NCBI RefSeq assembly: GCF_036924595.1
Contig: NZ_JAZHRV010000001.1
Coordinates: 7,653,501-7,717,500, forward strand
Reading direction: 5' to 3'
DNA from: Bradyrhizobium algeriense
GTDB lineage: Bacteria > Pseudomonadota > Alphaproteobacteria > Rhizobiales > Xanthobacteraceae
DNA: 64,000 nt
Made by a program: the position numbers and the translations under genes. A model generated the notes under the pieces. That model did no database searches. It was not told where the DNA came from and saw only the letters and a list, made by a program, of their open reading frames with translations. Positions within the stretch are counted from its first letter, which is position 1. The number at the start of each line of letters is the position of its first letter. Positions 13,082 through 62,686 of the stretch are shown piece after piece.

Positions 13082-13932
13082 TGGATCGATATCTGGTGCG
13101 ATGGCGGCTGGCATTTCTGGTCGCGGTGATGGCACTTGCGTTGCCGGGCAGCACTGCGTTCGCAGCCAATCTGCCGCGCCTGGTGTCGATGAATGTCTGC
13201 ACCGACCAATTGCTGCTGACGCTGGCCGACCCCGAGCAGATTCTGGGATTGAGCCGGTTTTCGCGGGACGGCTGGCAATCGCAGGCGGGCGACATGAGCC
13301 GCTATCCGGTTCTCTCCGGAGGAGCCGAAGACGTGCTGCTCATCAGGCCCGACATCGTCGTCGCCAGCGCGTTCGACAAGCGCTCGACGCGGGAACTGTT
13401 GAAGGCCAAGGGGCTTCGTCTCGCCGAACTCGCCGTGCCGCGAACCCTCGACGAAGCGCGGCAGCAGATCCGCGAGGCTGGCGACATCACCGGTCATCCC
13501 GATCGCGCGGCGGCGGAAATCGCACGGCTTGATGCCGCGCTGGCGCGCGCCCGCCACGCGGTCTCGGAGCGCCATTACCGCGTGCTGCCGTTGTCGCGGC
13601 GCGGCTGGGTGGCGGGCAGCGACAGCTTTGTCGGGTCGCTGCTCAGCGAAATTGGCTTGCGCAGCGCAGCCGGTGATCTCGGCTTTGCCTTCGGCGGCTT
13701 TGCTTCGCTGGAAGCGATCGTGAACTTACGGCCGGACTTCATCGTGGTTTCGCAGGCCGGCGACACTGCGAGGGACGACGGCCAGGCGTTCCTGCTGCAT
13801 CCGGCGCTGGAGCGTTTTTATCCACCGGAAAAGCGCATCGTGATTCCGGAGCGCATGACCGAGTGCGGCGGCGTGCTGCTGGCGGATGCGCTGGATGCGC
13901 TGACGGCGGAGGTGAAGCGGGTGGGAAACTAA
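13081..13932 (+). CDS. btuF: Periplasmic cobalamin-binding protein (BtuF-like)
   Basis: The 283-residue product has a signal peptide of about 29 residues (ending TAFA before ANLPRLV). Two alpha/beta lobes joined by a long helix follow, typical of class III binding proteins. RLVSMNVCTDQLLLTLADP and the EDVLLIRPDIVVAS strand match the BtuF/FhuD pattern. The ATG at 13081 overlaps the btuD stop. It should capture corrinoid in the periplasm and hand it to BtuCD. Some family members bind haem or siderophores instead; the B12 assignment rests on neighbourhood. Confidence 0.82.
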   Translation: MDRYLVRWRLAFLVAVMALALPGSTAFAANLPRLVSMNVCTDQLLLTLADPEQILGLSRFSRDGWQSQAGDMSRYPVLSGGAEDVLLIRPDIVVASAFDKRSTRELLKAKGLRLAELAVPRTLDEARQQIREAGDITGHPDRAAAEIARLDAALARARHAVSERHYRVLPLSRRGWVAGSDSFVGSLLSEIGLRSAAGDLGFAFGGFASLEAIVNLRPDFIVVSQAGDTARDDGQAFLLHPALERFYPPEKRIVIPERMTECGGVLLADALDALTAEVKRVGN

Positions 13933-51128: not shown

Positions 51129-52085
51129 ATGACCGCATCGCTGCCGGCATTCACCGACTACGAACCCTTCCGCGCCTGGCGCGCCGATCCGGCGCAATGG
51201 CTGCCGATCGCGCGCGATATCGCCCGCAGCCACGGCCTGGCATGCGCGGCGCCGCACGTCTTCACCACCGGCACCAACGTCGTCGTGGCGCTCGATGAAA
51301 AACTCATCCTGAAGATTTTCCCGCCATTTCTTCGCAGCCAATTTGCTTCAGAACGAAGCACGCTCGCGCAGCTCCGTGGACAGCTTCGTATCGCGATCCC
51401 CGAAACCGTCGCCGAAGGGGAGCGCGACGGATGGCCATATCTCGTCATCACGCGGCTGTCGGGGGTGTTGGGTGGGGACGCGTGGCCGTCTATGCCGGAA
51501 GCGGACAAGGAACGCGTTCTTGCCGAAATAGGCGAGACCATTGCCGAGGTGCAGCGCGTTCCTGCCGGGGTGCTCGCGCAGATCGAGCCGAACTGGGACG
51601 TCTTCATGCCCGGGCAGATCGAGGGATGCCGTGCGCGGCACGAGCGTCTCGGATTGCCGCAGAAATTTCTGGATGGACTGGACGAACTGCTGCGCGATAC
51701 GGCGCCCATGCTGATTGCGCTGGACGGGCCGCCGGTGATCCTGACCGGCGAATACATCCCGGAGAATTTCCTGCTGAGCCGCGATGGCGGCGGTTGGCAC
51801 CTCGCTGGGTTGATCGATTTCGGCGACGTGATGACGGGCAGGGGCGAATACGACCTGCTGGGGCCGAGCGCCTTCATGACCGCCGGCATGCCGCGGCGGG
51901 TGCGGAGCCTGTTTGGGGGCTTCGGATATTCGGCTGCGGATATCACGCCCGACCTGAAACGGCGGCTGATGGTGCTGTTGCTGCTGCATCGTCACAGTGA
52001 TCCCGCCAGAAGCATCTGTATCGCGGGCTGGCAGCAGAAGGCCGCTGACCTCCGTGAACTGCAGGATTTGCTCTGGCCCATTTGA
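51129..52085 (+). CDS. Aminoglycoside phosphotransferase-like kinase with altered catalytic loop
   Basis: The 318-residue protein has the APH/choline-kinase fold with nucleotide Lys62 (KLILKIFPP), a hinge around YLVITRLSG and the metal-binding DFG at 230-232 (LAGLIDFGDV). The usual HxDxxxxN catalytic loop reads Thr206-Gly-Glu208-Tyr-Ile-Pro-Glu-Asn213, so the base Asp is replaced by Glu. It may be a weak or repurposed kinase. No resistance function should be assumed. Confidence 0.82.
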   Translation: MTASLPAFTDYEPFRAWRADPAQWLPIARDIARSHGLACAAPHVFTTGTNVVVALDEKLILKIFPPFLRSQFASERSTLAQLRGQLRIAIPETVAEGERDGWPYLVITRLSGVLGGDAWPSMPEADKERVLAEIGETIAEVQRVPAGVLAQIEPNWDVFMPGQIEGCRARHERLGLPQKFLDGLDELLRDTAPMLIALDGPPVILTGEYIPENFLLSRDGGGWHLAGLIDFGDVMTGRGEYDLLGPSAFMTAGMPRRVRSLFGGFGYSAADITPDLKRRLMVLLLLHRHSDPARSICIAGWQQKAADLRELQDLLWPI

Positions 52086-52144
52086 GTGTCGCACAGCAAT
52101 GGAGCGCTCAAAATATCTGCGTTAAAAGTAGGCAAATATGCCTC

Positions 52145-52156
52145 TTTGTATGCAAT
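52145..52156. promoter_or_regulatory. Candidate GntR operator upstream of the transporter operon
   Basis: TTTGTATGCAAT (with core TTGTATGCAA) matches the degenerate palindrome TTGTRTRCAA also found at 62533-62544 before the allophanate hydrolase gene. It lies about 95 bases upstream of the sigma-54-type promoter. Both sites would suit a FadR/VanR-type GntR protein, and such a gene is in the operon. Confidence 0.4.
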
Positions 52157-52250
52157 CAATGGGCCGGCGCGCTCAATCGAGAATCCCTGTTTGTTGTCCA
52201 TCCTGCCGATAAATCAGCGGCTTAGGCGAGGATTAGCTTTGTTTTAACGG

Positions 52251-52266
52251 TTGGCACAAACCTTGC
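52251..52266 (+). promoter_or_regulatory. Sigma-54 promoter of the transporter/hydrolase operon
   Basis: TTGGCACAAACCTTGC has the GG of the -24 element and the GC of the -12 element at exactly the required spacing (TGGCAC, five bases, TTGC). It is 47 bases ahead of the binding-protein start codon. Sigma-54 promoters need an activator such as NtrC, so this points to nitrogen control. Confidence 0.75.
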
Positions 52267-52313
52267 GATCCCGTTCCAAAGCCGTTTCCCCTCTGGCGTT
52301 TGGAGCATCACCC

Positions 52314-53933
52314 ATGAAGCGTCGCGATTTCCTCAAATCCGTCACCGGCGTTGCCGCGGGCGCGATGGTGCCCGCGCCGGCGATCTGGTCCGCGGCCAAG
52401 GCTGATGCGCGGTCGGAAACGCTGTTGATTGTCTCGGAAAGCGGCCCCAACAACCTCGACATTCACGGCGTCGGCACCAACGTGCCCGGCTATGAAGTGT
52501 CGTGGAATTGTTACGACCGCCTGATCAGCCACGAGATGAAGAGCGGTCCGGGCGGCGTGCCGTATTACGACCGCGACAAGTTCAAGCCTGAACTTGCCGA
52601 GGACATGAATGTCGGCGACATGTCGGTCACCTTCAAGCTGAAGAAGAAAGCCACGTTCCACGATGGCGCGCCGGTCACGGCCAAGGACGTCAAGTGGTCG
52701 CTCGATCGCGCGGTGAGCGTCGGCGGTTTTCCGACCTTCCAGATGGGCGCGGGCTCCCTGACCAAGCCCGAGCAGTTCGTCGTCGTCGACGACAACACGG
52801 TACGGGTCGATTTTGCCAAGAAGGATCGCCTGACTCTGCCGGATCTCGCGGTCATCGTCCCCTGCATCGTCAATTCCGAGCTGGTGAAGAAGAACGCCAC
52901 CGAGAAGGATCCCTGGGGTCTCGAATACACCAAGCAGCAGACCGCGGGCTCCGGCGCCTACAAAGTGACGAAGTGGACCGCCGGCACCGAAGTCATCATG
53001 GAGCGCAACGATTCGTGGGTCGGCGGTCCCTTGCCGAAGGTCAAGCGCGTGATCTGGCGCATGGTGCCGCAAGCCGGCAACCGCCGCGCGCTGCTGGAGC
53101 GCGGCGACGCCGACATCTCCTACGATCTGCCGAACAAGGATTTCGTCGAGCTGAAGGACAGCGGCAAGCTCAACATCGTCTCGGTGCCGTATTCCAATGG
53201 CGTCCAGTACATCGGCATGAACGTCAAGATCCCGCCGTTCGACAATCCCAAGGTTCGGCAGGCCGTCGCGTGCGCGATCCCCTACCAGAAGATCATGGAT
53301 GCGGTGCTGTTCGGCCTGGCCAAGCCGATGTTCGGCGCCGCTGCCGACAAGGCCACCGAGGTGGCGTGGCCGCAGCCGACCAAATACGTCACTGACATCG
53401 CCAAGGCCAAGGCATTGCTGGCGGAGGCCGGCCATCCCAACGGTTTCGAGACCACGCTGTCGTTCGACCTCGGCTTCGCCGGCGTCAACGAACCGCTCTG
53501 CGTGCTGGTGCAGGAGAGCCTCGCGCAGATCGGCATCAAGACCACCATCAACAAGATCCCCGGCGCCAACTGGCGCACCGAACTGAACAAGAAGGTGCTG
53601 CCGCTCTACACCAACGTGTTTTCCGGCTGGCTCGATTATCCCGAGTATTTCTTCATCTGGTGCTATGACGGCAAGAATTCGATCTTCAACACCATGAGCT
53701 ACCAGTCAAAGGCGATGGACGAGTTCATCCACGGCGCCGTCGACGCCGCGGCGATCGGCAACACCGCCAAATACGACACCGACGTAAAGGGTTTTGTCGA
53801 TCTCGCCTTCAAGGACATCCCGCGCATCCCGCTGTATCAGCCCTATGTCAACGTCGCGATGCAGAAGAATGTGTCGGGCTATCAGTACTGGTTCCACCGT
53901 CGCCTGGATTATCGCGCGCTCGTGAAAGCATAA
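52314..53933 (+). CDS. Dipeptide/peptide-type ABC transporter substrate-binding protein
   Basis: The 539-residue exported protein has a Tat-like signal (MKRRDFLKSVTGVAAGAMVP) and a family 5 binding fold. SVTFKLKKKATFHDGAPVTA, VKRVIWRMVPQAGNRRALLE and VPYSNGVQYIGMNVK are visible, with the DppA/OppA/NikA plan of two lobes plus an extra domain. It delivers its ligand to the permeases downstream. Given the hydrolases encoded next, the ligand may be a ureide or amide rather than a peptide. Confidence 0.9.
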   Translation: MKRRDFLKSVTGVAAGAMVPAPAIWSAAKADARSETLLIVSESGPNNLDIHGVGTNVPGYEVSWNCYDRLISHEMKSGPGGVPYYDRDKFKPELAEDMNVGDMSVTFKLKKKATFHDGAPVTAKDVKWSLDRAVSVGGFPTFQMGAGSLTKPEQFVVVDDNTVRVDFAKKDRLTLPDLAVIVPCIVNSELVKKNATEKDPWGLEYTKQQTAGSGAYKVTKWTAGTEVIMERNDSWVGGPLPKVKRVIWRMVPQAGNRRALLERGDADISYDLPNKDFVELKDSGKLNIVSVPYSNGVQYIGMNVKIPPFDNPKVRQAVACAIPYQKIMDAVLFGLAKPMFGAAADKATEVAWPQPTKYVTDIAKAKALLAEAGHPNGFETTLSFDLGFAGVNEPLCVLVQESLAQIGIKTTINKIPGANWRTELNKKVLPLYTNVFSGWLDYPEYFFIWCYDGKNSIFNTMSYQSKAMDEFIHGAVDAAAIGNTAKYDTDVKGFVDLAFKDIPRIPLYQPYVNVAMQKNVSGYQYWFHRRLDYRALVKA

Positions 53934-53945
53934 GAGGCGAGCGTC

Positions 53946-54959
53946 ATGCTGACCATGATCGGCAAGCGGCTGATGTTTGCGATCCCGTCGCTGATCGGGG
54001 TCGTGATCGTCACGTTCCTCCTGACGCGCGCATTGCCCGGCGATCCCGCGGCTTATTTCGCCGGACCCGCGGCGAGCAAGGAAGCCATTGAGCAGATCCG
54101 CAAGAAACTCGGCTTCGACAAGCCGCTGATCGAGCAGTTTTTCCGCTACACCAACGATCTCGCGCATGGCGATTTCGGCAACTCGCTCACCACGGGCCAG
54201 CCGGTCGCGACCGAAATTCGCAACCGCCTGCCGGCATCTGCCGAACTGACGCTGCTCGGCCTCGTCGTTTCGGTCATGATAGCCATCCCGCTCGGCGTGC
54301 TGGCGGCAACGCGCCCGGGCTCCTGGATCGACCATCTCTGTCGCATCACCACGACGGCCGGTGTATCGCTGCCGGTATTCTTTACAGGTCTGGTGCTGGT
54401 CTATGTGTTCTATTTCCGCCTCGGCTGGTCGCCGGCGCCGCTCGGCCGCCTCGACGTGTTCTATAGCGCGCCGCCCGCCGTGACCGGCCTTTATCTGATC
54501 GACGCCCTGATCGCGCGCGATCTCGAGACATTTCGTTCCGCGCTGAGCCAGTTGATCCTGCCGGCGGCAACGCTTGCAATCTTCTCGCTGGCGCCGATCG
54601 CGCGCATGACGCGGGCCTCGATGCTGGCGGTGCTGGCGTCCGATTTCGTCCGCACCGCGCGCGCCAGCGGGCTGTCGCCGTCGACCGTGATCGTCACCTA
54701 CGCGTTTCGCAACGCGATGCTACCGGTCATCACCACGCTCAGCATGGTGTTCTCGTTCCTGCTGGGGGCCAATGTGCTGGTCGAGAAAGTTTTCGCCTGG
54801 CCCGGCATCGGCTCCTACGCGGTGGAAGCGCTGATCTCGTCGGATTTCGCGCCGGTGCAGGGTTTCGTGCTGACCATGGCGGTCATGTACGTGCTGCTCA
54901 ATCTGATCATCGACATTCTCTACGGCGTGATCGATCCGCGCGTGCGACTGGAAGGGTGA
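53946..54959 (+). CDS. ABC transporter permease, DppB-like
   Basis: The 337-residue, six-helix protein has an N-terminal signature MIGKRLMFAIPSLIGVVIVT and TRALPGDPAAYFAG. The EAA coupling loop RTARASGLSPSTVIVTYAFR docks to the ATPase. It pairs with the DppC-like product of the next gene and lies 12 bases after the binding-protein gene. Confidence 0.93.
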   Translation: MLTMIGKRLMFAIPSLIGVVIVTFLLTRALPGDPAAYFAGPAASKEAIEQIRKKLGFDKPLIEQFFRYTNDLAHGDFGNSLTTGQPVATEIRNRLPASAELTLLGLVVSVMIAIPLGVLAATRPGSWIDHLCRITTTAGVSLPVFFTGLVLVYVFYFRLGWSPAPLGRLDVFYSAPPAVTGLYLIDALIARDLETFRSALSQLILPAATLAIFSLAPIARMTRASMLAVLASDFVRTARASGLSPSTVIVTYAFRNAMLPVITTLSMVFSFLLGANVLVEKVFAWPGIGSYAVEALISSDFAPVQGFVLTMAVMYVLLNLIIDILYGVIDPRVRLEG

Positions 54960-54968
54960 GGTTGGAAG

Positions 54969-55868
54969 ATGAGTAGCGTTGCGCCTGCCGCTGAGCCCGT
55001 CGGACCCGCGCGTACCTCGGGACTATCAGCGATGTTTGAGCACACCCGCTACGTGCTCGGCGAGAACCGCGTCACGGCGTTCGCCTTCGGCCTCTTGGTG
55101 ATCATCCTGTTCGCCGCGATCTTCGGCCCCTACATCGTGCCTTACGATCCGCTCGCCAGCGATACCGCTGCAGCCCTGAAACCGCCATCCGCGGCGCACT
55201 GGTTCGGCACCGATCAATTGGGCCGCGACATTTTCAGCCGCGTCGTCGTCGCCACGCGGCTCGATACCTTCATCGCGGTCGCCTCCGTGGCATTGGTGTT
55301 CCTGATGGGCGGGCTGGCCGGCATCGCCGCCGGTTATTTCGGCGGCTGGACCGACCGTATCGTCGGCCGTGTCGCCGACACCATCATGGCGTTTCCGCTG
55401 TTCGTGCTGGCGATGGGCATCGTCGCAGCGCTCGGCAATACCGTGCAGAACATCATCATCGCCACCGCGATCGTGAACTTTCCGCTCTATGCCCGCGTGG
55501 CGCGGGCCGAGGCGAACGTGCGCCGCAACGCCGGCTTCGTGCAGGCGGCGCGGCTGTCGGGCAACGGCGAAATGCGGATTCTGCTGGTGCACATCCTGCC
55601 CAACATCATGCCGATCATGATCGTGCAGATGTCGCTCACCATGGGTTACGCCATTCTCAACGCCGCCGGCCTCTCCTTCATCGGGCTCGGCGTGCGGCCG
55701 CCGACGGCGGAATGGGGCATCATGGTCGCGGAAGGCGCGGGCTTCATGGTGTCGGGCGAATGGTGGATCGCGCTGTTCCCGGGGCTTGCGCTGATGATCG
55801 CGGTGTTCTGCTTCAATTTGCTCGGCGACGGCCTGCGCGACATCGTCGATCCGCAGCGGAGGACGTGA
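54969..55868 (+). CDS. ABC transporter permease, DppC-like
   Basis: The 299-residue membrane subunit has the OppC_N segment VLGENRVTAFAFGLLVIILF and a HWFGTDQLGRDIFSRVVVAT motif. The coupling loop has FVQAARLSGNGEMRILLVHI and the end shows FNLLGDGLRDIVDPQRR. It is standard for the second permease of dipeptide/nickel-type systems. The next gene starts about 110 bases on. Confidence 0.93.
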   Translation: MSSVAPAAEPVGPARTSGLSAMFEHTRYVLGENRVTAFAFGLLVIILFAAIFGPYIVPYDPLASDTAAALKPPSAAHWFGTDQLGRDIFSRVVVATRLDTFIAVASVALVFLMGGLAGIAAGYFGGWTDRIVGRVADTIMAFPLFVLAMGIVAALGNTVQNIIIATAIVNFPLYARVARAEANVRRNAGFVQAARLSGNGEMRILLVHILPNIMPIMIVQMSLTMGYAILNAAGLSFIGLGVRPPTAEWGIMVAEGAGFMVSGEWWIALFPGLALMIAVFCFNLLGDGLRDIVDPQRRT

Positions 55869-55977
55869 TGGCTGATTCAAGCTTTGCTCGTCTCGGTCCC
55901 CGCAGGGGGAATGCGACAGGGGGGCTGACCGTTCTACTTTGCATGGGGTTGTTTTCGATATTTTTGCGGAGGCCGTC

Positions 55978-57789
55978 ATGACCGCCCAGCCCCTGCTCGA
56001 CGTCAACGACCTCACCGTCGAATTCACCACGCGCCGTGGCATCGTCAAGGCGGTGCAGCACGTCAACATCTCGGTCGGCAAGGGCGAAACGCTTGGCATC
56101 GTCGGCGAGTCCGGCTCCGGCAAATCGGTGACATCTTATGCCGTAATGCGGATCCTCGACCGCGCCGGCCGGATCGCCGACGGCTCGGTGATGTTCTCCG
56201 GCATCGACGTCAGGGCCGCGAGCGAAAACGAGATGCGCGATTTGCGCGGCCGCGAAATCTCGATGATCTTTCAGAATCCGCGCGCGGCGCTGAACCCGAT
56301 CCGGAAAGTGGGCGACCAGATCGAGGACGTGCTGCGCCAGCATGTGCAGAGCGCGGGCAGCGACCGCGGCGAGAAGGCGATCGAGGCGCTGGAGCAAGTC
56401 AAGATCGCCCGTCCCCGCGAGCGCTATCACGCCTATCCGTTCGAACTTTCCGGCGGCATGTGCCAGCGCGTCGTGATCGCGCTGGCGCTGGCCTGCAATC
56501 CGCAGCTCCTGATCGCGGACGAACCGACCACCGGCCTCGACGTCACCACGCAGAAGGCGGTGATGGATTTGATCGTGGAACTGACCAAGCGCCGGAATAT
56601 GTCGACCATCCTGATCACACATGATCTGGGGCTCGCCGCCGCCTATTGCGACCGCGTGGTGGTGATGGAGAAGGGCCGGGTGGTGGAGACGGCGAAGTCA
56701 GCGGATATCTTTGCCAGGCCCGAGCACGCCTATACGAAGAAACTGATGCGCGCGACGCCGAGGATCGGCGTGTCGTTGCGGGATTTGCTGCCGGAAGAAG
56801 ACCCTGCGGCGCTTTCTTCAGCCTCGCCCCGCGCGCGGGGAGAGGCCGACGCACGAAGTGCGGCGGGTGAGGGGCTGCCTCCGCGGACTGCGATCGTGGA
56901 GAGAGCCCCTCACCCCGACCCTCTCCCCGTGAAGGACGGGGAGAGGGAGCAGAAACCCCTCCTCCTCGTCGAAAAGCTCGTCAAGGAATATCCGCGCCAA
57001 GGCGCCACCGCCGTGCTCGGCAAACTGTTCTCCCGCAAGCCGCCGGTCGAGACGGAAATATTCCGCGCGGTTGACGGCATCGGCTTCACCGTCGGGCATG
57101 GCGAGAGCGTCGGCCTGGTCGGCGAGTCCGGCTGCGGCAAATCCACCACATCGATGATGGTGATGCGGCTGCTCGACCAGACCTCCGGCCGCATCCTGTT
57201 CGATGGCGAGGAAATCGGCGCCATCCTGCCGCAGGCCTTTGCGCGACTGCCGCAGCGCAAGAGCATCCAGATGGTGTTCCAGGACCCGACCGACAGCCTC
57301 AACCCGCGCTTCACGGCGGCGCGGGCCATCGCTGATCCGATCATGCAGCTCGGCGACGTCAGGGGACGTGACGCGCTGCGCGCGCGCTGCGAGGAGTTGG
57401 CCGGCCTGGTCGGCCTGCCCATCAACCTGCTCGATCGCTTTCCGCACCAATTATCCGGCGGCCAGAAGGCCCGTGTCGGCATCGCACGCGCCATCGCGCT
57501 GCATCCAAAGCTCGTGATCCTCGACGAGCCGACGGCGGCGCTCGACGTCTCCGTGCAGGCCGTCGTGCTCAATCTGCTGCAGGATCTCAAGGCGTCGATG
57601 GGCATGAGTTATTTGTTTGTGTCCCATGATTTGAACGTGGTGCGCTTGCTGTGCGATCGTGTCATCGTGATGCGTGCGGGGCGAATCGTCGAGCAGGGCT
57701 CGTCCGAGCGCGTGCTCGGCGATCCGCAGGATGCCTACACCAAGGAATTGCTGACGGCGATCCCGCATCCGCCGTTGCCGGTTCACTAG
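55978..57789 (+). CDS. Fused DppD-DppF-type ABC ATPase, with repeat-derived linker
   Basis: The 603-residue protein contains two complete nucleotide-binding domains. NBD1 (about 1-265) has GESGSGKS, FELSGGMCQRV and LLIADEPTTGLD. NBD2 (about 327-600) has GESGCGKS, HQLSGGQKARVGIA and LVILDEPTAALD. The linker at residues about 282-324 is encoded by a family B palindromic repeat (56822-56949) and reads as ASPRARGEADARSAAG and APHPDPLPVKDGERE. The insert adds about 43 residues without breaking the frame and sits where tolerance is greatest. It powers the transporter above. Separate dppD and dppF genes are commoner than the fusion. Confidence 0.92.
   Translation: MTAQPLLDVNDLTVEFTTRRGIVKAVQHVNISVGKGETLGIVGESGSGKSVTSYAVMRILDRAGRIADGSVMFSGIDVRAASENEMRDLRGREISMIFQNPRAALNPIRKVGDQIEDVLRQHVQSAGSDRGEKAIEALEQVKIARPRERYHAYPFELSGGMCQRVVIALALACNPQLLIADEPTTGLDVTTQKAVMDLIVELTKRRNMSTILITHDLGLAAAYCDRVVVMEKGRVVETAKSADIFARPEHAYTKKLMRATPRIGVSLRDLLPEEDPAALSSASPRARGEADARSAAGEGLPPRTAIVERAPHPDPLPVKDGEREQKPLLLVEKLVKEYPRQGATAVLGKLFSRKPPVETEIFRAVDGIGFTVGHGESVGLVGESGCGKSTTSMMVMRLLDQTSGRILFDGEEIGAILPQAFARLPQRKSIQMVFQDPTDSLNPRFTAARAIADPIMQLGDVRGRDALRARCEELAGLVGLPINLLDRFPHQLSGGQKARVGIARAIALHPKLVILDEPTAALDVSVQAVVLNLLQDLKASMGMSYLFVSHDLNVVRLLCDRVIVMRAGRIVEQGSSERVLGDPQDAYTKELLTAIPHPPLPVH
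56822..56949 (+). repeat. Family B palindromic repeat inside the ATPase coding sequence, copy 3
   Basis: CCTCGCCCCGCGCGCGGGGA, GGTGAGGGG, CCCCTCACCCC and CCTCTCCCCG ... CGGGGAGAGG follow the plan of the intergenic copies at 32559 and 44428. Its length and flanks keep the reading frame, and it is placed between two NBDs. The phrase APHPDPLP is the peptide that this repeat gives in this frame. Confidence 0.9.
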
Positions 57790-57810
57790 AGAGTTGAGTG
57801 AGAGCGAAAA

Positions 57811-57993
57811 ATGCCCGCCGATCCGCTGGACGATTACATCAACGCCGTATCCAACGCGCTGGCGCTGCCGGTCGAGGAAGCCTGGCGGCCTGCCGTGCGG
57901 GCAAATCTCGAAGTGTCGCTGAGGCTGGCGCGGCTGGTCGATGAATTCCCGCTGCCGGACGAAACCGAGCCGGCCAGTGTCTACACAGCCTGA
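57811..57993 (+). CDS. atzG: AtzG-like small subunit (DUF4089)
   Basis: The 60-residue helical protein contains PLDDYINAVSNALALPVEEA and NLEVSLRLARLVDEFPLP, the DUF4089 pattern. AtzG is known to be the small partner needed for assembly and activity of the carboxybiuret hydrolase AtzE, and the equivalent HpxX accompanies the oxalurate-type amidase HpxY. The amidase gene follows within eight bases. It is slightly shorter than typical AtzG. Confidence 0.85.
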   Translation: MPADPLDDYINAVSNALALPVEEAWRPAVRANLEVSLRLARLVDEFPLPDETEPASVYTA

Positions 57994-58000
57994 TAGCGCC

Positions 58001-59398
58001 ATGACTGTAAACACCGACGGGCTGTCAGCCCAACAAATCGCGCAGGCCGTAACAGACGGCAAGCTGTCCGCGCTTGACGCGACCGAGGCCGCGCTGGCGC
58101 GGATCGCCAAACACGATTCCGTTCTGAATTCGTTCACCGACGTCACCGCCGACCGTGCGCGTGCAAAAGCCCGCGCGGTCGATGCCGCGATCTCCGCCGG
58201 CCAGAAGGTCGGTCCGCTCGCCGGCGTGCCGTTCGCGGTCAAGAACCTGTTCGACGTCAAAGGTCTTTCAACCCGCGCCGGGTCGAAGATCAATCGCGAT
58301 CTGGCGCCGTCGCCGCGTGATGCCACGCTGATCGAGCGCATGGAGGCCGCCGGCGCCGTGCTGGTCGGCGCGCTCAACATGGGCGAATACGCCTACGATT
58401 TTACGGGCGAGAACGTGCATGACGGTCCGTCGCGCAATCCGCATGATCCGACGCGGATGACCGGCGGCTCCTCGGGCGGCTCCGGCAGTGCGGTTGGCGG
58501 CGCGCTCGTTCCGATCGCCCTGGGATCCGACACCAATGGTTCGATCCGCGTGCCATCGTCGTTCTGCGGCGTCTTTGGCTTGAAGCCGACCTACGGCCGG
58601 CTGTCGCGGGCGCGGTCGTTTCCCTTTGTCGCAAGCTTCGATCATCTCGGCCCGTTCGCACGCAGCGTCGGCGATCTCGCGCTGGCCTATGACGCCATGC
58701 AGGGCCCTGACGCCGATGACGCGGCCTGCACGACACGGCCGGTTGAACCGGTCACCTCACTGCTGGCGCAGGGTGTCTCGGGCCTGCGGGTCGCGGTGGC
58801 CGGCGGCTATTTTCAGAAGAACGTCTTTCCCGAAGCGGTCGAGGCTGTCGCGCGCGTTGCCAAGGCGCTCGATGCCACGCAAACAATCGAAATTCCGGAG
58901 GCAGCGCGCGCCCGCGCGGCGGCTTACGTGATCTCCACCACTGAAGGCGCATCGCTTCATCTCGACCGGCTGCGAAAACGTCCGAATGATTTCGATCCGG
59001 CGGTGCGGGATCGCCTGATCGCGGGTGCGATGGTCCCGGCGCCTTTGGTCGATCGCGCGCAGAAATTCCGCCGCTGGTATCGCGCAAAGGTGCTCGAACT
59101 GTTCAAGTCGGTGGACGTGATCATCGCCCCGGCCACGCCCTGCATCGCGCCCAAGCTCGGTCAGGTGAATTTCGTGCTCGACGGCGTCGAGCTCCCCGTG
59201 CGCGCCAATATCGGCATCCACACCCAGCCGATTTCGTTCATCGGCCTGCCCGTCGTCGCGGTGCCGGTGCCGCTGGAGCCGATGCCGATCGGCGTGCAGA
59301 TCATCGCCGCTCCCTGGCGCGAAGATATCGCGTTGCGGGTTGCACATGCGCTGGAACGTATGGGCGTTGCCGCGGCTCCAGCCCCGAGAGGATTATGA
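58001..59398 (+). CDS. atzE: AtzE-family amidase (1-carboxybiuret hydrolase / HpxY-like)
   Basis: The 465-residue amidase-signature enzyme has a Ser-cisSer-Lys triad: Lys81 (PFAVKNLFD), Ser157/158 ([10 protein letters not shown]) and nucleophile Ser181 ([10 protein letters not shown]). Ending and start overlap the flanking genes (ATGA with the next). The AtzE family deaminates 1-carboxybiuret in cyanurate breakdown; close relatives in hpx clusters act on oxalurate-like ureides. The exact substrate is uncertain. Its association with AtzG and AtzH-like genes is characteristic. Confidence 0.87.
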
Positions 59399-59811
59399 CG
59401 ATGGAGATCGATCTTCCCGACGTACTGGCCGAAGTGACCGCGCAATTCGCACGCTACGAGAAGGCGCTGGTGTCGAACGATGTGGCGGTGCTCGATGAAC
59501 TGTTCCGCAACGATCGCCGCACGCTGCGCTACGGCATTGGTGAAAATCTCTACGGCTACGACGCGATCATGGCGTTCCGCGCCGCCCGCTCGCCGGTCGG
59601 GCTGATGCGGCGGACCGACAAGACCGTGATCACGACCTATGGCCGTGACGCGGCGGTCGCCTCGACGCTGTTCTATCGCGAGGGCGCGCCGGGCAAAGTC
59701 GGACGGCAGATGCAAACCTGGGTACGTTTTCCGGAAGGGTGGAGGATTGTCGCGGCCCATGTCAGCATCATCAATGATCCCGAAGCTCCCAAGGTGGATT
59801 CGAAGTCATGA
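59395..59811 (+). CDS. AtzH/HpxZ-like protein (DUF3225, SnoaL fold)
   Basis: The 138-residue NTF2/SnoaL-like protein has [20 protein letters not shown], a [19 protein letters not shown] segment and [20 protein letters not shown], the DUF3225 plan. In cyanurate degraders the AtzH member helps convert the AtzE product (1,3-dicarboxyurea) to allophanate; HpxZ of oxalurate clusters is related. Overlaps of four bases tie it to the genes on both sides. The assignment is by family and context. Confidence 0.82.
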
Positions 59812-60542
59812 GTCTTGACGATCTTCGCACGCCAACGCCGCCATCCGGCGCGGAGGCCGAGACGCCGGTCCGGCGCGTCGATCGGCCTTCGTCGCTGCGG
59901 AACAAGGTCACGCGCGCGGAAGAGCTGCGGCTGCAGTTGGCCGACGAGATCGTGCGCGGCGTGCTGGCGCCGGGATCGGCGCTCGACGAGACCGATATCG
60001 CGCGGCGCTTTTCCGTGTCGCGCACGCCGGTTCGCGAGGCGCTGCGGCAACTGGTGGCGAGCGGGCTGGTCGAAGCCCGCGCCCACCGCGGCGCCGTGGT
60101 CGCGCAGCCCTCGCTGGATCGTTTGACTGAAATGTTCGAGGCGATGGCGGAACTGGAAGCGCTGTGCGCCGGGCTCGCGGCGGAGCGGATGCCGCCGGGG
60201 GATCGCCAGAAGCTGGAAGCGGTCCACGAGGAATTGCGGGTGCTGAGCCACGCCGGCAATCCCGAACGCTTTCACGAGGTCAACGAGCGCTTCCACAACG
60301 CGATCTATGCCGGCTCGCAGAACGGCTATATCGCCGAGATGACGCTGGCGACGCGGGTGCGGGTGCAGCCGTTCCGCCGCGCCCAGTTCCGCAACCTCGG
60401 GCGGCTGGCGAAATCGCACGCCGAGCACGACCGCGTCGTGGTCGCCATCATGCGCGGCGACAAGGCGGGTGCAGCGGCCGCGATGCGCGCCCATATCGAA
60501 CTGGTGCGCGGGGAGTATGAGCTCTACGCGGTGTCGGTGTAA
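59808..60542 (+). CDS. GntR-family regulator (FCD/FadR branch)
   Basis: The 244-residue protein has a winged helix-turn-helix at about 37-100 ([20 protein letters not shown]) and an all-helical FCD effector domain at 110-230. The latter shows metal/ligand His residues in the pattern [11 protein letters not shown] and SHAEHDRVV. It is the last gene of the operon and a candidate regulator of both nitrogen-scavenging units via TTGTRTRCAA sites. The ligand may be the imported ureide or a breakdown product. Confidence 0.9.
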
Positions 60543-60565
60543 GGCTTTCGCCGCTTGCGCAAGAC

Positions 60566-60655
60566 CGTAGGGTGGGCAAAGGCGCTTAAGCGCCGTGCCC
60601 ACCATCTTTCCGCTGCTGCATTGATGGTGGGCACGCTTCGCTTTGCCCACCCTAC
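60566..60655. repeat. Dispersed inverted repeat, family A, copy 3
   Basis: CGTAGGGTGGGCAAAGGCGC opens and GCTTTGCCCACCCTAC closes it, with GTGCCCACCATC and GATGGTGGGCAC inside, close to the copies at 5958 and 13951. It lies exactly between the convergent GntR and allophanate hydrolase genes, again in terminator position. Confidence 0.88.
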
Positions 60656-60665
60656 AAAATGACGG

Positions 60666-62474
60666 CTAGACGCCCGCTTTCTCCGCCATGAACGCGCGCC
60701 AGCCACCGTAGGCCGAAATATCGCGTGCGCCATTGATCGCGGCAGGTTCGACGACAAAGCCCTTCACACCTCTTCCATCTGCGAGCCGTACCGTCCCAAT
60801 CCCGAGCGGCGGCGGGATCGCGGCGACGAACTTGCCGAAGGCTGCGGCCGACAGCGCCCATAGCTCCAGCTTGATCGAGCTGCCCGCGCCTGTGTCCACG
60901 CGCAGCATGCCAGGTTTTGGCGGCGTGGTGTCGAGCGCATAGAGTTTGTAATCGGGCGCGGTGGTGGCCTCTTCGAGCAGGCGTCCGCCGAGCACCTGCA
61001 GTTCGCCGTTGAGCGCCATGCCGGAGAGGTGCGCGCCGACCACGGCGATGGTGATTTCATCGTTGCTGGTGCCGGCCGGCAATGGCGCGAGCGCGGGCTG
61101 CGTCAGGCCCTTGGCCCCCATCTTCAGTTTGGTGTCGGCATGAAACACCCGTCCGATGCTGGCGAGCGCTGCGTCGCGTCCGGCGGGCGCAAGCAGCGTG
61201 ATGCCGAATGGAATGCCGTCCGCGCGCATCGCGGCCGGCAGCGCGAGGCCGCAGAGGTCGAGCAAATTCACAAAATTGGTGTAGGTGCCGAGCCTCGAGT
61301 TGAGCTCGATCGGATTGGCCAGCACCTGCGCGGTCGAATAGGCGGTCGGGGCCGTCGGCAGCACCATCGCGTCGAGATTGGCGAAGGCGCGCTCGGCCAC
61401 GCGGCGCAGCGCCTGCAGCCGATAGAGCGAGGCAAAGGTGTCGGCGGCGGTGAGCCGCGCACCGGCGGCCGTGATTTCGCGCGTTACCGGATGGATCGAA
61501 TCCGGCGATGACGCCAAGAGGTCACGGATGACAAGATAACGTTCGGCGACCCACGGGCCCTCATAGAGCAGCCGCGCGGTCTCATAAAACGGCTCGAGAT
61601 CGAATTCGACCAGCGTGGCGCCGAGCGATGTCCAGCGCGCAAGCGCTTCGCCATAGGCTTTCTCCGCGGCGCGGTCGCCGAAGAAGATCAGTTGGCCATT
61701 GCGCGGCACGCCCAATCGCAATTGGCCGGGAAACGCGGACACGGCTCCCAGCGGCCGGTCGCGCGAAAACGGGTCGGCGCCATCAGGGCCGGCCATCGCA
61801 GCCAGTGCGGTCATCGCGTCGTCGACGGTGAGCGAGAACACCGAAATGCAGTCCAGCGTCCGGCACGCCGGAACGAGCCCGGCGTTGGAGATCAGCCCGA
61901 GGCTCGGCTTAAGTCCGACGATGTTGTTGAGCATCGCCGGTACGCGGCCCGAACCGGCGGTGTCGGTGCCGAGTGCGAGCGGCACGAGGCCTGCGGAAAC
62001 CGCGACCGCCGATCCCGAACTCGATCCGCCTGGAATCAGATCGGCGCGGATCGGATTGACGGGAATGCCGTAGGGCGAGCGGACGCCGACCAGGCCGGTT
62101 GCGAACTGGTCGAGATTGGTCTTGCCGATGATGATGGCGCCGGCCGCCCGCAGTTTAGCGACCGCGGTCGAATCCTGCGCGGGCAAATAGGAAAAGGCCG
62201 GGCAGGCCGCCGTGGTCGGCAAACCCTGCGCGTCGATATTGTCCTTCACCGCGACCGGCACGCCATACAGCGGAAGCGCCGCCGCATCCTTCGAGGCCAG
62301 CGCTTCGGCATCCGCCAGCGCCTCCTTCTCGTCGCGCAGGCTGATGAACACGGCCGGATCGTTATAGGCGCGGATGCGCTGATAGAAGCGGGCGATGGTT
62401 TGCGCCGGGGTCATGGTCGCGGCGCGGTGCGCGGCGACGATGGCGGCAACGGTTTCAGGCGTGTCAGACCCCAT
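60666..62474 (-). CDS. atzF: Allophanate hydrolase (AtzF-like)
   Basis: The 602-residue protein has an amidase domain (1-440) with Lys77 (VPVAVKDNI), Ser151/152 (PGGSSSGSA) and Ser175 (TDTAGSGRVPA). A distinct C-terminal domain (about 470-602; FVVEPAAINGARDISAYGGW) is typical of allophanate hydrolases. It converts allophanate to ammonia and CO2. I start at the ATG at 62474 because the sigma-54-type promoter lies at 62519-62533 and the longer start (62543) would lie upstream of it. No urea carboxylase is encoded nearby, so allophanate probably comes from the AtzE/H pathway. Confidence 0.9.
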   Translation of the reverse strand: MGSDTPETVAAIVAAHRAATMTPAQTIARFYQRIRAYNDPAVFISLRDEKEALADAEALASKDAAALPLYGVPVAVKDNIDAQGLPTTAACPAFSYLPAQDSTAVAKLRAAGAIIIGKTNLDQFATGLVGVRSPYGIPVNPIRADLIPGGSSSGSAVAVSAGLVPLALGTDTAGSGRVPAMLNNIVGLKPSLGLISNAGLVPACRTLDCISVFSLTVDDAMTALAAMAGPDGADPFSRDRPLGAVSAFPGQLRLGVPRNGQLIFFGDRAAEKAYGEALARWTSLGATLVEFDLEPFYETARLLYEGPWVAERYLVIRDLLASSPDSIHPVTREITAAGARLTAADTFASLYRLQALRRVAERAFANLDAMVLPTAPTAYSTAQVLANPIELNSRLGTYTNFVNLLDLCGLALPAAMRADGIPFGITLLAPAGRDAALASIGRVFHADTKLKMGAKGLTQPALAPLPAGTSNDEITIAVVGAHLSGMALNGELQVLGGRLLEEATTAPDYKLYALDTTPPKPGMLRVDTGAGSSIKLELWALSAAAFGKFVAAIPPPLGIGTVRLADGRGVKGFVVEPAAINGARDISAYGGWRAFMAEKAGV

Positions 62475-62518
62475 GGCGAGCAAAAAACTCCGGCGAGCAA
62501 AGGTTACCGCGAATGAAA

Positions 62519-62534
62519 GCAAGCGATGTGCCAT
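62519..62534 (-). promoter_or_regulatory. Sigma-54 promoter of the allophanate hydrolase gene
   Basis: On the complement strand the sequence ATGGCACATCGCTTGC has TGGCAC, five bases and TTGC, the same pattern as at 52251-52266. It is 45 bases ahead of the atzF start codon. Two such sites in front of both arms of one pathway are unlikely to be chance. Confidence 0.75.
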
Positions 62535-62544
62535 TGTGTACAAT
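62533..62544. promoter_or_regulatory. Candidate GntR operator next to the atzF promoter
   Basis: ATTGTGTACAAT has perfect five-base arms and touches the -24 end of the promoter. It shares the form TTGTRTRCAA with the site at 52145-52156. Bound GntR protein could block sigma-54 polymerase here. Confidence 0.5.
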
Positions 62545-62686
62545 CGTTGGATGGCGCCAGCCTTAAACGATAGGTACGTAATATCAGTTGTTTAGGACAC
62601 GAGCATGCTCATGCTGCGTGCTTGGCGCGGCCGAGTATATGCCTAAAATATGAGCGGTGAGGCCTAAGGCGAGGCTGCGGCCCCGC

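Follow-up and report, generated by a model that had tools for sequence, protein, structure and literature searches.

In Pseudomonas ADP, the genes of the cyanuric acid pathway reportedly form a single plasmid operon with a LysR regulator, and they are said to respond to nitrogen limitation through a sigma-54-dependent atzR promoter together with a pathway-specific regulator. A related allophanate funnel with TrtA, BiuH and AtzF was described in Herbaspirillum BH-1 and Rhizobium leguminosarum, and both the triuret hydrolase TrtA and the cyanuric acid hydrolase AtzD yield carboxybiuret, the substrate of AtzEG (PMC7948467). In rhizobia, an NtrC/sigma-54 regulon with -24/-12 promoters, TGC-N11-GCA sites and nitrogen-scavenging targets, including atzF and atzE, was reported (PMC5343134, PMC13207237), and atzF is on a list of predicted NtrC targets in Rhizobiales (PMC5343134). 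The present analysis concerns two sigma-54 promoters and their genes in a stretch of 64,000 nucleotides, hereafter the window, which covers positions 7,653,501-7,717,500 of the single-contig, 8,102,604-base genome of Bradyrhizobium algeriense (8.10 Mb chromosome). An earlier note on this DNA had claimed a complete nitrogen-scavenging locus, i.e., an operon for a transporter, AtzG/E/H and a GntR regulator, and a convergent allophanate hydrolase gene, atzF, each behind its own sigma-54 promoter. These genes were all found in the claimed arrangement, and AtzG, AtzE, AtzH and AtzF are the enzymes that the locus has in common with the atzDGEHF system of Pseudomonas ADP (PMC6219798).

Judged by sequence and conservation, both promoters are genuine; they are conserved and belong to the nitrogen-control type. 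It is reasonable to consider them as parts of a dispersed cyanurate/triuret/biuret regulon, with a probability of roughly 0.7, which would be controlled by NtrC and sigma-54 together with a pathway-specific regulator, most likely the GntR protein of the operon. The control of the operon and atzF by sigma-54 and nitrogen limitation, as proposed earlier, is well supported by promoter conservation, NtrC-type sites at fixed distance, the presence of an ntrC gene and the rpoN transcriptomes of a relative, while the role given to NtrC is read from the sequence of the enhancer sites. The control elements of the window are as follows; IHF stands for integration host factor.

52118..52134, plus strand: NtrC-type enhancer site TGCGTTAAAAGTAGGCA (TGC-N11-GCA), 134 bp upstream of the -24 element of the operon
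52146..52155, plus strand: palindrome-like TTGTATGCAA, candidate GntR/FCD operator, operon promoter
52212..52224, plus strand: IHF-like site AATCAGCGGCTTA, operon promoter
52252..52266, plus strand: sigma-54 -24/-12 promoter of the transporter/atzGEH/gntR operon, TGGCACAAACCTTGC
62519..62533 (read 62533-62519), minus strand: sigma-54 -24/-12 promoter of atzF, TGGCACATCGCTTGC
62534..62543, minus strand: palindrome-like TTGTACACAA, touching the -24 element of atzF
62582..62594, plus strand: IHF-like site TATCAGTTGTTTA, in opposite orientation to the atzF promoter
62640..62656, minus strand: NtrC-type enhancer site CGCTCATATTTTAGGCA (YGC-N11-GCA), 123 bp upstream of the -24 element of atzF

Both promoters matched TGGCAC-N5-TTGC exactly, as had been claimed, with the GG and GC doublets at -24/-12 in the fixed spacing. 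The distance of 47 bases from the operon promoter to the ATG at 52314 was right, and the 45 bases given for atzF are really 44 (ATG 62474; translation could also start from an in-frame TTG, 62483). The window contains three exact matches, where 100 shuffles gave 0.14 on average and never as many as three, and the chromosome contains 28, against 10 for the reversed pattern. When one mismatch was allowed, no excess was found in the window (4 vs. 5.55 expected).

Conservation was assessed in relatives collected by a search of named genomes with the window GntR, which gave 181 relatives. The best 80 were kept, i.e., 76 labelled Bradyrhizobium and four with higher-rank metagenome labels, the nearest of these 80 being B. 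algeriense RST91 (99%). With the own locus, 81 loci were sampled, and the upstream region was usable in 63 for the binding-protein gene (the other 18 were without the gene start) and in 78 for atzF. The exact element was found before the operon in 58/63 loci and before atzF in 73/78, and TGGCAY-N5-TTGC in 63/63 and 76/78, respectively, which are counts from kin and so not independent. The element stands out from the surrounding upstream DNA, which has diverged to a mean column identity of 54% in a 19-sequence alignment. The gene order with convergent atzF was kept in most loci on long enough contigs. In rpoN mutants of Bradyrhizobium DOA9, the atzF, atzE, peptide-type transporter and isochorismatase genes were lowered (PMC13207237). 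The B. algeriense genome holds one sigma-54 gene, as recognized by its N-terminal domain.

Upstream blocks were counted, against 40 dinucleotide shuffles, in all promoters having a -24/-12 element (63 of the operon and 76 of atzF), with distances taken from the -24 element. The search upstream gave predicted NtrC sites at both window promoters, at the distances listed above and within the roughly 80-150 bp expected for the NtrC regulon. TGC-N11-GCA was found in 36/63 operon promoters (shuffle mean 5.8), mostly at -132 to -136, and in 43/76 atzF promoters (7.0). Almost all of the latter sites lie either at -131 to -133 or nearer to the promoter by roughly a turn of the helix, at -121 to -123. 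The relaxed form YGC-N11-GCR was present in 74/76 atzF promoters against 31.4 in shuffles and clustered at -121 to -133. Because this relaxed form is common by chance, the strict form was used genome-wide and position was used elsewhere. At -140 to -70, the strict form accompanied 5 of the 28 genomic sigma-54 sites against 1.06 expected (2/500 shuffles reach 5), i.e., those of a NarK-type gene, the biuH operon, trtA, a formate/nitrite-type transporter and the window operon. The relaxed form gave 9 against 5.5, and 26/500 shuffles reach 9. At glnB, TGCCTATTTTGTAAGCT was found at -103 with one mismatch to the enhancer.

For Sinorhizobium meliloti NtrC, the same motif, TGC-N11-GCA with an A/T-rich region, was confirmed by mutation as well as by gel shift and footprint. 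The promoter in question is one repressed by NtrC, and the motif can also be recognized at glnII of several rhizobia (PMC10746234). The genome encodes one NtrC above the curated cut-off (TIGR01818, 747 bits vs. 558.6; GAFTGA by eye), one NtrX and one FlbD. Ten matches to the Sigma54_activat domain were found, of which six were strong, i.e., NtrC, NtrX and four others. NifA was discarded as the activator, as none of the six strong proteins reaches the NifA cut-off. One sigma-54 gene and no activator at that cut-off suggest a strain without the usual nif control.

A second conserved block was found at both promoters. TGTAYRCA was present in 62/63 operon promoters (0.4 in shuffles), at -103 to -107 or -94 to -96, and in 73/76 atzF promoters (0.4), 70 of them at -9, where it abuts the -24 element. 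The longer TTGTAYRCAA has nine copies in the genome, four of them at the sigma-54 promoters of the operon, atzF, trtA and the biuH operon. Of the seven places outside the window promoters, two are those of trtA and the biuH operon, where about 0.006 would be expected within +/-130 bases of the other 26 sigma-54 sites, an estimate made partly after the fact as the copies had first been seen by eye. A wider pattern, TTGYRYRCAA, was set aside as too loose (85 places vs. 41 for its reversed control).

The 24-base composite of palindrome and promoter, TGTACACAATGGCAY-N5-TTGC, was found in 188/195 Bradyrhizobium genomes, the own included, and the reversed pattern had no match. The composite was present twice in 134 genomes, once in 53 and three times in one. 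Among the 30 composite loci that were read, 20 stood before a trtA-type gene and 10 before atzF (4 recognized by a script pattern, 6 from N-termini). A YGC-N11-GCA site lay 111-124 bases upstream of the composite in 28/30 loci against 0.82 in 100 shuffles, and a second one at -84 to -88 in 16/20 trtA loci and none of the 10 atzF loci. The seven composite-free genomes (G006, G030, G041, G075, G115, G137 and G165) are all small, i.e., 3.4-5.3 Mb.

The second palindrome at four promoters points to a pathway-specific regulator that would act with NtrC, and the GntR protein of the operon is the most likely reader of TTGTAYRCAA. FCD-type GntR proteins bind palindromes of the form NyGTNxACNy (PMC4494728), to which TTGTACACAA conforms and from which TTGTATGCAA is off at one base, AC being read as GC. 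A GntR orthologue of at least 78% identity was found in 21/21 composite-bearing genomes and in 1/7 composite-free ones (28 of the 195 genomes tested). This co-occurrence gives weak support to GntR as the reader, because the small composite-free genomes may also lack the target genes.

An enhancer, an IHF bend and a promoter in that order are a common sigma-54 layout, and IHF-like sites were found between the other two elements at both window promoters. The motif WATCARNNNNTTR occurred in 21/63 operon promoters against 1.2 in shuffles, all at -40, and in 18/76 atzF promoters against 0.6, where it is inverted and always lies at -59 to -61. As the strict motif misses most loci, IHF is proposed here from position. 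At trtA and the biuH operon, where the strict motif is missing, the IHF site was dropped as a part of the common layout, and confidence in the regulon was slightly lowered for this reason.

The claim of a complete locus did not hold. The partner genes atzD, biuH and trtA sit megabases away, and the biuH operon and trtA bear the same control elements as the window promoters. The genome gave a single cyanuric acid hydrolase gene, atzD (C1:3939962-3941053; L123 14947-16119, minus strand), which scores above the AtzD cut-off and is about 3.77 Mb from the window locus, thus outside the operon. It is placed between two transporter operons, each with a sigma-54 site, and these sites, 3933721 and 3941242, are two of the 28. 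Site 3933721 precedes the biuH operon, which encodes a binding protein, two BPD_transp_2 permeases, BiuH, an ATPase and a uracil phosphoribosyltransferase. TTGCATACAA and TGCCGTAAATTTAGGCA were found upstream of this operon in B. algeriense. The BiuH-type protein scored 420 against the BiuH cut-off of 370, and it carries the alternates at 6/6 TrtA/BiuH specificity positions (numbering via alignment). The binding protein of the operon is BMP-type by eye, and its reading frame is interrupted near the start (L123 8813-9926, plus strand), which may be an assembly error or a pseudogene.

The third place is that of an isochorismatase-type hydrolase gene (C1:4725158-4725859; L152 9155-9859, minus strand), 3.0 Mb from the window locus and behind TTGTACACAATGGCACGCGCCTTGC. 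Its product has 6xix and 6xj4/6xje as best solved relatives, and 6XJE is a TrtA structure (PMC7948467). It retains the catalytic triad and all six TrtA residues, i.e., F35, N41, A134, E160, Y187 and I205 (numbering via alignment), and scores 263 on the BiuH model, under the cut-off of 370. The gene was called a triuret hydrolase gene, trtA, because of these residues, the structural relatives and the score below the BiuH cut-off. In DOA9, one isochorismatase gene has the predicted site TGGCACGGCGCTTGC at -37 (PMC13207237), and the same 15-mer was found in many trtA promoters of the genomes compared here. A LysR-type gene is located upstream of trtA in the same orientation, and the end of this gene overlaps with the enhancer.

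The elements can be joined in one model. Across Bradyrhizobium, the operon and atzF have the -24/-12 element, an enhancer-type site at near-fixed distance and the palindrome, with an IHF-like site in some loci; trtA, and in this genome the biuH operon, have the same three elements without a strict IHF match. Under nitrogen shortage, phosphorylated NtrC bound to the TGC-N11-GCA sites would open the sigma-54 complex, and IHF would assist at some promoters. The pathway-specific regulator, most likely the operon GntR, would bind TTGTAYRCAA. At atzF and trtA, a regulator placed against the -24 element would block polymerase, and at the operon and biuH-operon promoters, where the palindrome is beside the NtrC site, it would hinder NtrC. 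A compound of the pathway would then release the regulator and free the promoters. By enzyme homology, TrtA and AtzD would convert triuret and cyanuric acid, respectively, to carboxybiuret, AtzEG and AtzH would carry this to allophanate, BiuH would form allophanate from biuret, and AtzF would release ammonia from allophanate. The enzymes of the locus probably free ammonia from biuret-like compounds. The stronger form of the model is a near-core AND gate of Bradyrhizobium, in which NtrC-sigma-54 and a GntR repressor would restrict expression of the regulon to conditions that combine nitrogen shortage with the presence of a pathway compound. It is put forward tentatively, at somewhat under even odds.

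Several observations weigh against the regulon as described. No recognizable -24/-12 element was found before atzF in two loci (L081 and L107), and in a third (L070) atzGEH, gntR and atzF are present and the transporter genes absent. The strict enhancer is absent from 27/63 operon and 33/76 atzF loci, and the own atzF enhancer starts with CGC, not TGC. The strict IHF motif is absent from 42/63 operon and 58/76 atzF loci, was found in 1/20 trtA loci, and has no match at the own trtA and biuH-operon promoters. Genome-wide, the palindrome TTGTAYRCAA shows no enrichment (9 vs. 16 for the reversed pattern). The gene atzD is read in the opposite direction to the biuH operon, and no exact sigma-54 site was found directly before it.

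Further objections concern the identity of the two regulators. Activation of the sigma-54 promoters by an enhancer-binding protein other than NtrC is rather improbable. Such a protein could be one of the four strong Sigma54_activat proteins beyond NtrC and NtrX; one of these four is FlbD, a flagellar regulator, and none is at the NifA cut-off. By eye, GAFTGA is present in four enhancer-binding proteins besides NtrC. The enteric NtrC consensus has the arms TGCACC/GGTGCA, and these were not seen at the enhancers here. No relaxed -24/-12 and no matching enhancer were found at the glnK-type loci (L125, L127), no enhancer at a promoter in the glutamine synthetase loci (L190, L191), and no clear TGC-N11-GCA at the urtA promoter, which has a -24/-12 element. 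However, the missing enteric arms were dropped as an argument against NtrC, since the NtrC site footprinted in S. meliloti is itself a TGC-N11-GCA whose centre is A/T-rich (PMC10746234), and the same site type precedes the NarK-type and formate/nitrite-type genes and, with one mismatch, glnB. It is likewise unlikely that NtrC drives the promoters and another regulator reads the palindrome, e.g., the MocR-type GntR whose gene diverges from the biuH operon, or some other protein of the GntR type. The genome gave 25 matches to the window GntR as query, and the palindrome is found at five further places. However, the orthologue lies within the regulated operon and follows the composite across genomes (with the reservation on missing targets made above), and Atu1419, an FCD-type GntR protein, binds such a palindrome, ATGTATACAT (PMC7797058).

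The substrate and the promoters themselves were also considered. That the operon serves another substrate, i.e., an oxalurate-, ureide- or peptide-like compound, and that only atzF and trtA serve triuret and biuret is doubtful. The match of AtzH to the HpxZ model and the peptide/glutathione type of the binding protein would fit such a role, but atzF adjoins the operon and has control elements in common with it, and carboxybiuret is the product of both TrtA and AtzD as well as the substrate of AtzEG (PMC7948467). The chance origin of the -24/-12 matches, with the genes read from ordinary promoters, is hardly credible and was rejected by conservation. About a third of the 28 genomic matches could be chance, as judged from the 10 reversed ones, but the elements are conserved before the same genes, in 63/63 and 76/78 loci, in otherwise diverged DNA, and atzF and atzE are lowered in the rpoN mutants of the relative (PMC13207237). 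The dispersed regulon under NtrC-sigma-54 and a pathway-specific regulator is retained as the preferred reading.

The genes of the window locus are as follows.

52314..53933, plus strand: ABC substrate-binding protein, SBP_bac_5; starts MKRRDFLK, with a Tat-like signal (by eye)
53946..54959, plus strand: ABC permease, DppB/OppB type
54969..55868, plus strand: ABC permease, DppC/OppC type
55978..57789, plus strand: double ABC ATPase, given from the first ATG (55978); the longest frame opens with TTG at 55939
57811..57993, plus strand: atzG, 1-carboxybiuret hydrolase small subunit, 60 amino acids; PF13318, E value 2.7e-17
58001..59398, plus strand: atzE, 1-carboxybiuret hydrolase catalytic subunit; above the TIGR02715 cut-off, longest frame from 57941
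59395..59811, plus strand: atzH, proposed 1,3-dicarboxyurea decarboxylating amidohydrolase; PF11533
59808..60542, plus strand: GntR/FCD transcription regulator, candidate reader of the TTGTAYRCAA box
60666..62474, minus strand: atzF, allophanate hydrolase with C-terminal AH_C domain, convergent

The start of atzE is most likely at 58001 rather than 57941, because 57941 falls within atzG. The alignment of AtzE to 6c62 spans most of its length, and AtzF has the length of the two-domain form. AtzH retains Tyr and Arg matching Tyr22 and Arg46 (numbering worked out from the alignment; PMC6219798). The closest solved structures to the binding protein are remote, i.e., peptide-type and related proteins. 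Directly 5' of the operon, an APH-family phosphotransferase-like frame was found (window 51129-52085, plus strand), whose scores on the named aminoglycoside phosphotransferase models were far below cut-off.

Other sigma-54 sites were noted in passing. The third exact match of the window (13130-13144, plus strand) is at the very beginning of a Peripla_BP_2 protein frame and is probably a coincidence. Elsewhere in the genome, exact sites precede genes for uricase (L007), a NarK-type transporter (L006; under the cut-off of that model), a formate/nitrite-type transporter (L020) and an Asp/Glu/hydantoin racemase-type protein (L015), and from these a wider nitrogen-scavenging gene set may share the sigma factor. 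One further exact site precedes a hook-like flagellar protein (by eye). TGGCACGGCGCTTGC was also found before an EF-hand-like protein (by eye; L010 1501-1515, plus strand), and it is likewise listed for an EF-hand gene in DOA9 (PMC13207237).

This type of control was known before and is in part published for these genes; new are the scattered gene set and a second operator, which GntR probably reads. A literature search, largely of open-access papers, found no account of the combined regulon or the palindrome, and none of these genes is named in the available part of the Bradyrhizobium paper on transcription start sites. By the present analysis, a guess about two promoters becomes a testable regulon of four promoters, spread over three parts of the chromosome. 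Sites for NtrC and a local regulator are proposed at all four of them and IHF sites at two, and a target set is offered for the GntR protein. In a genus of major importance for plants, the recently found triuret hydrolase would be tied to nitrogen control. If the stronger, near-core form of the model is true, triuret, a uric acid oxidation product, would be a regular nitrogen source around legume roots. As the composite stood before trtA or atzF at all 30 loci read, the pattern could be used to find both genes in Bradyrhizobium.

Enterobacterial ggt-atzG-atzE-atzH clusters, also named hpxWXYZ, are a further system for comparison, and the hpx genes are under nitrogen control. They are like the present locus in having AtzG/E/H-type genes near genes for nitrogen compounds, but they have a gamma-glutamyltransferase-like gene instead of an allophanate hydrolase gene and a LysR-type gene nearby (PMC6219798). 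The rhizobial NtrC/sigma-54 regulon shares promoter type, enhancer type and targets, whereas the scattered set of biuH, trtA and the atzGEH-transporter operon with its common palindrome is not described in the available parts of those reports (PMC5343134, PMC13207237). In contrast to the system of Pseudomonas ADP, the genes of B. algeriense lie in three chromosomal places and have a GntR/FCD candidate as regulator. The enzymes and chemistry of Herbaspirillum BH-1 and R. leguminosarum are the same, but their genes are in operons, whereas trtA of B. algeriense is unlinked to biuH and atzF (PMC7948467). To that route, B. algeriense adds AtzEG, which would take carboxybiuret directly.

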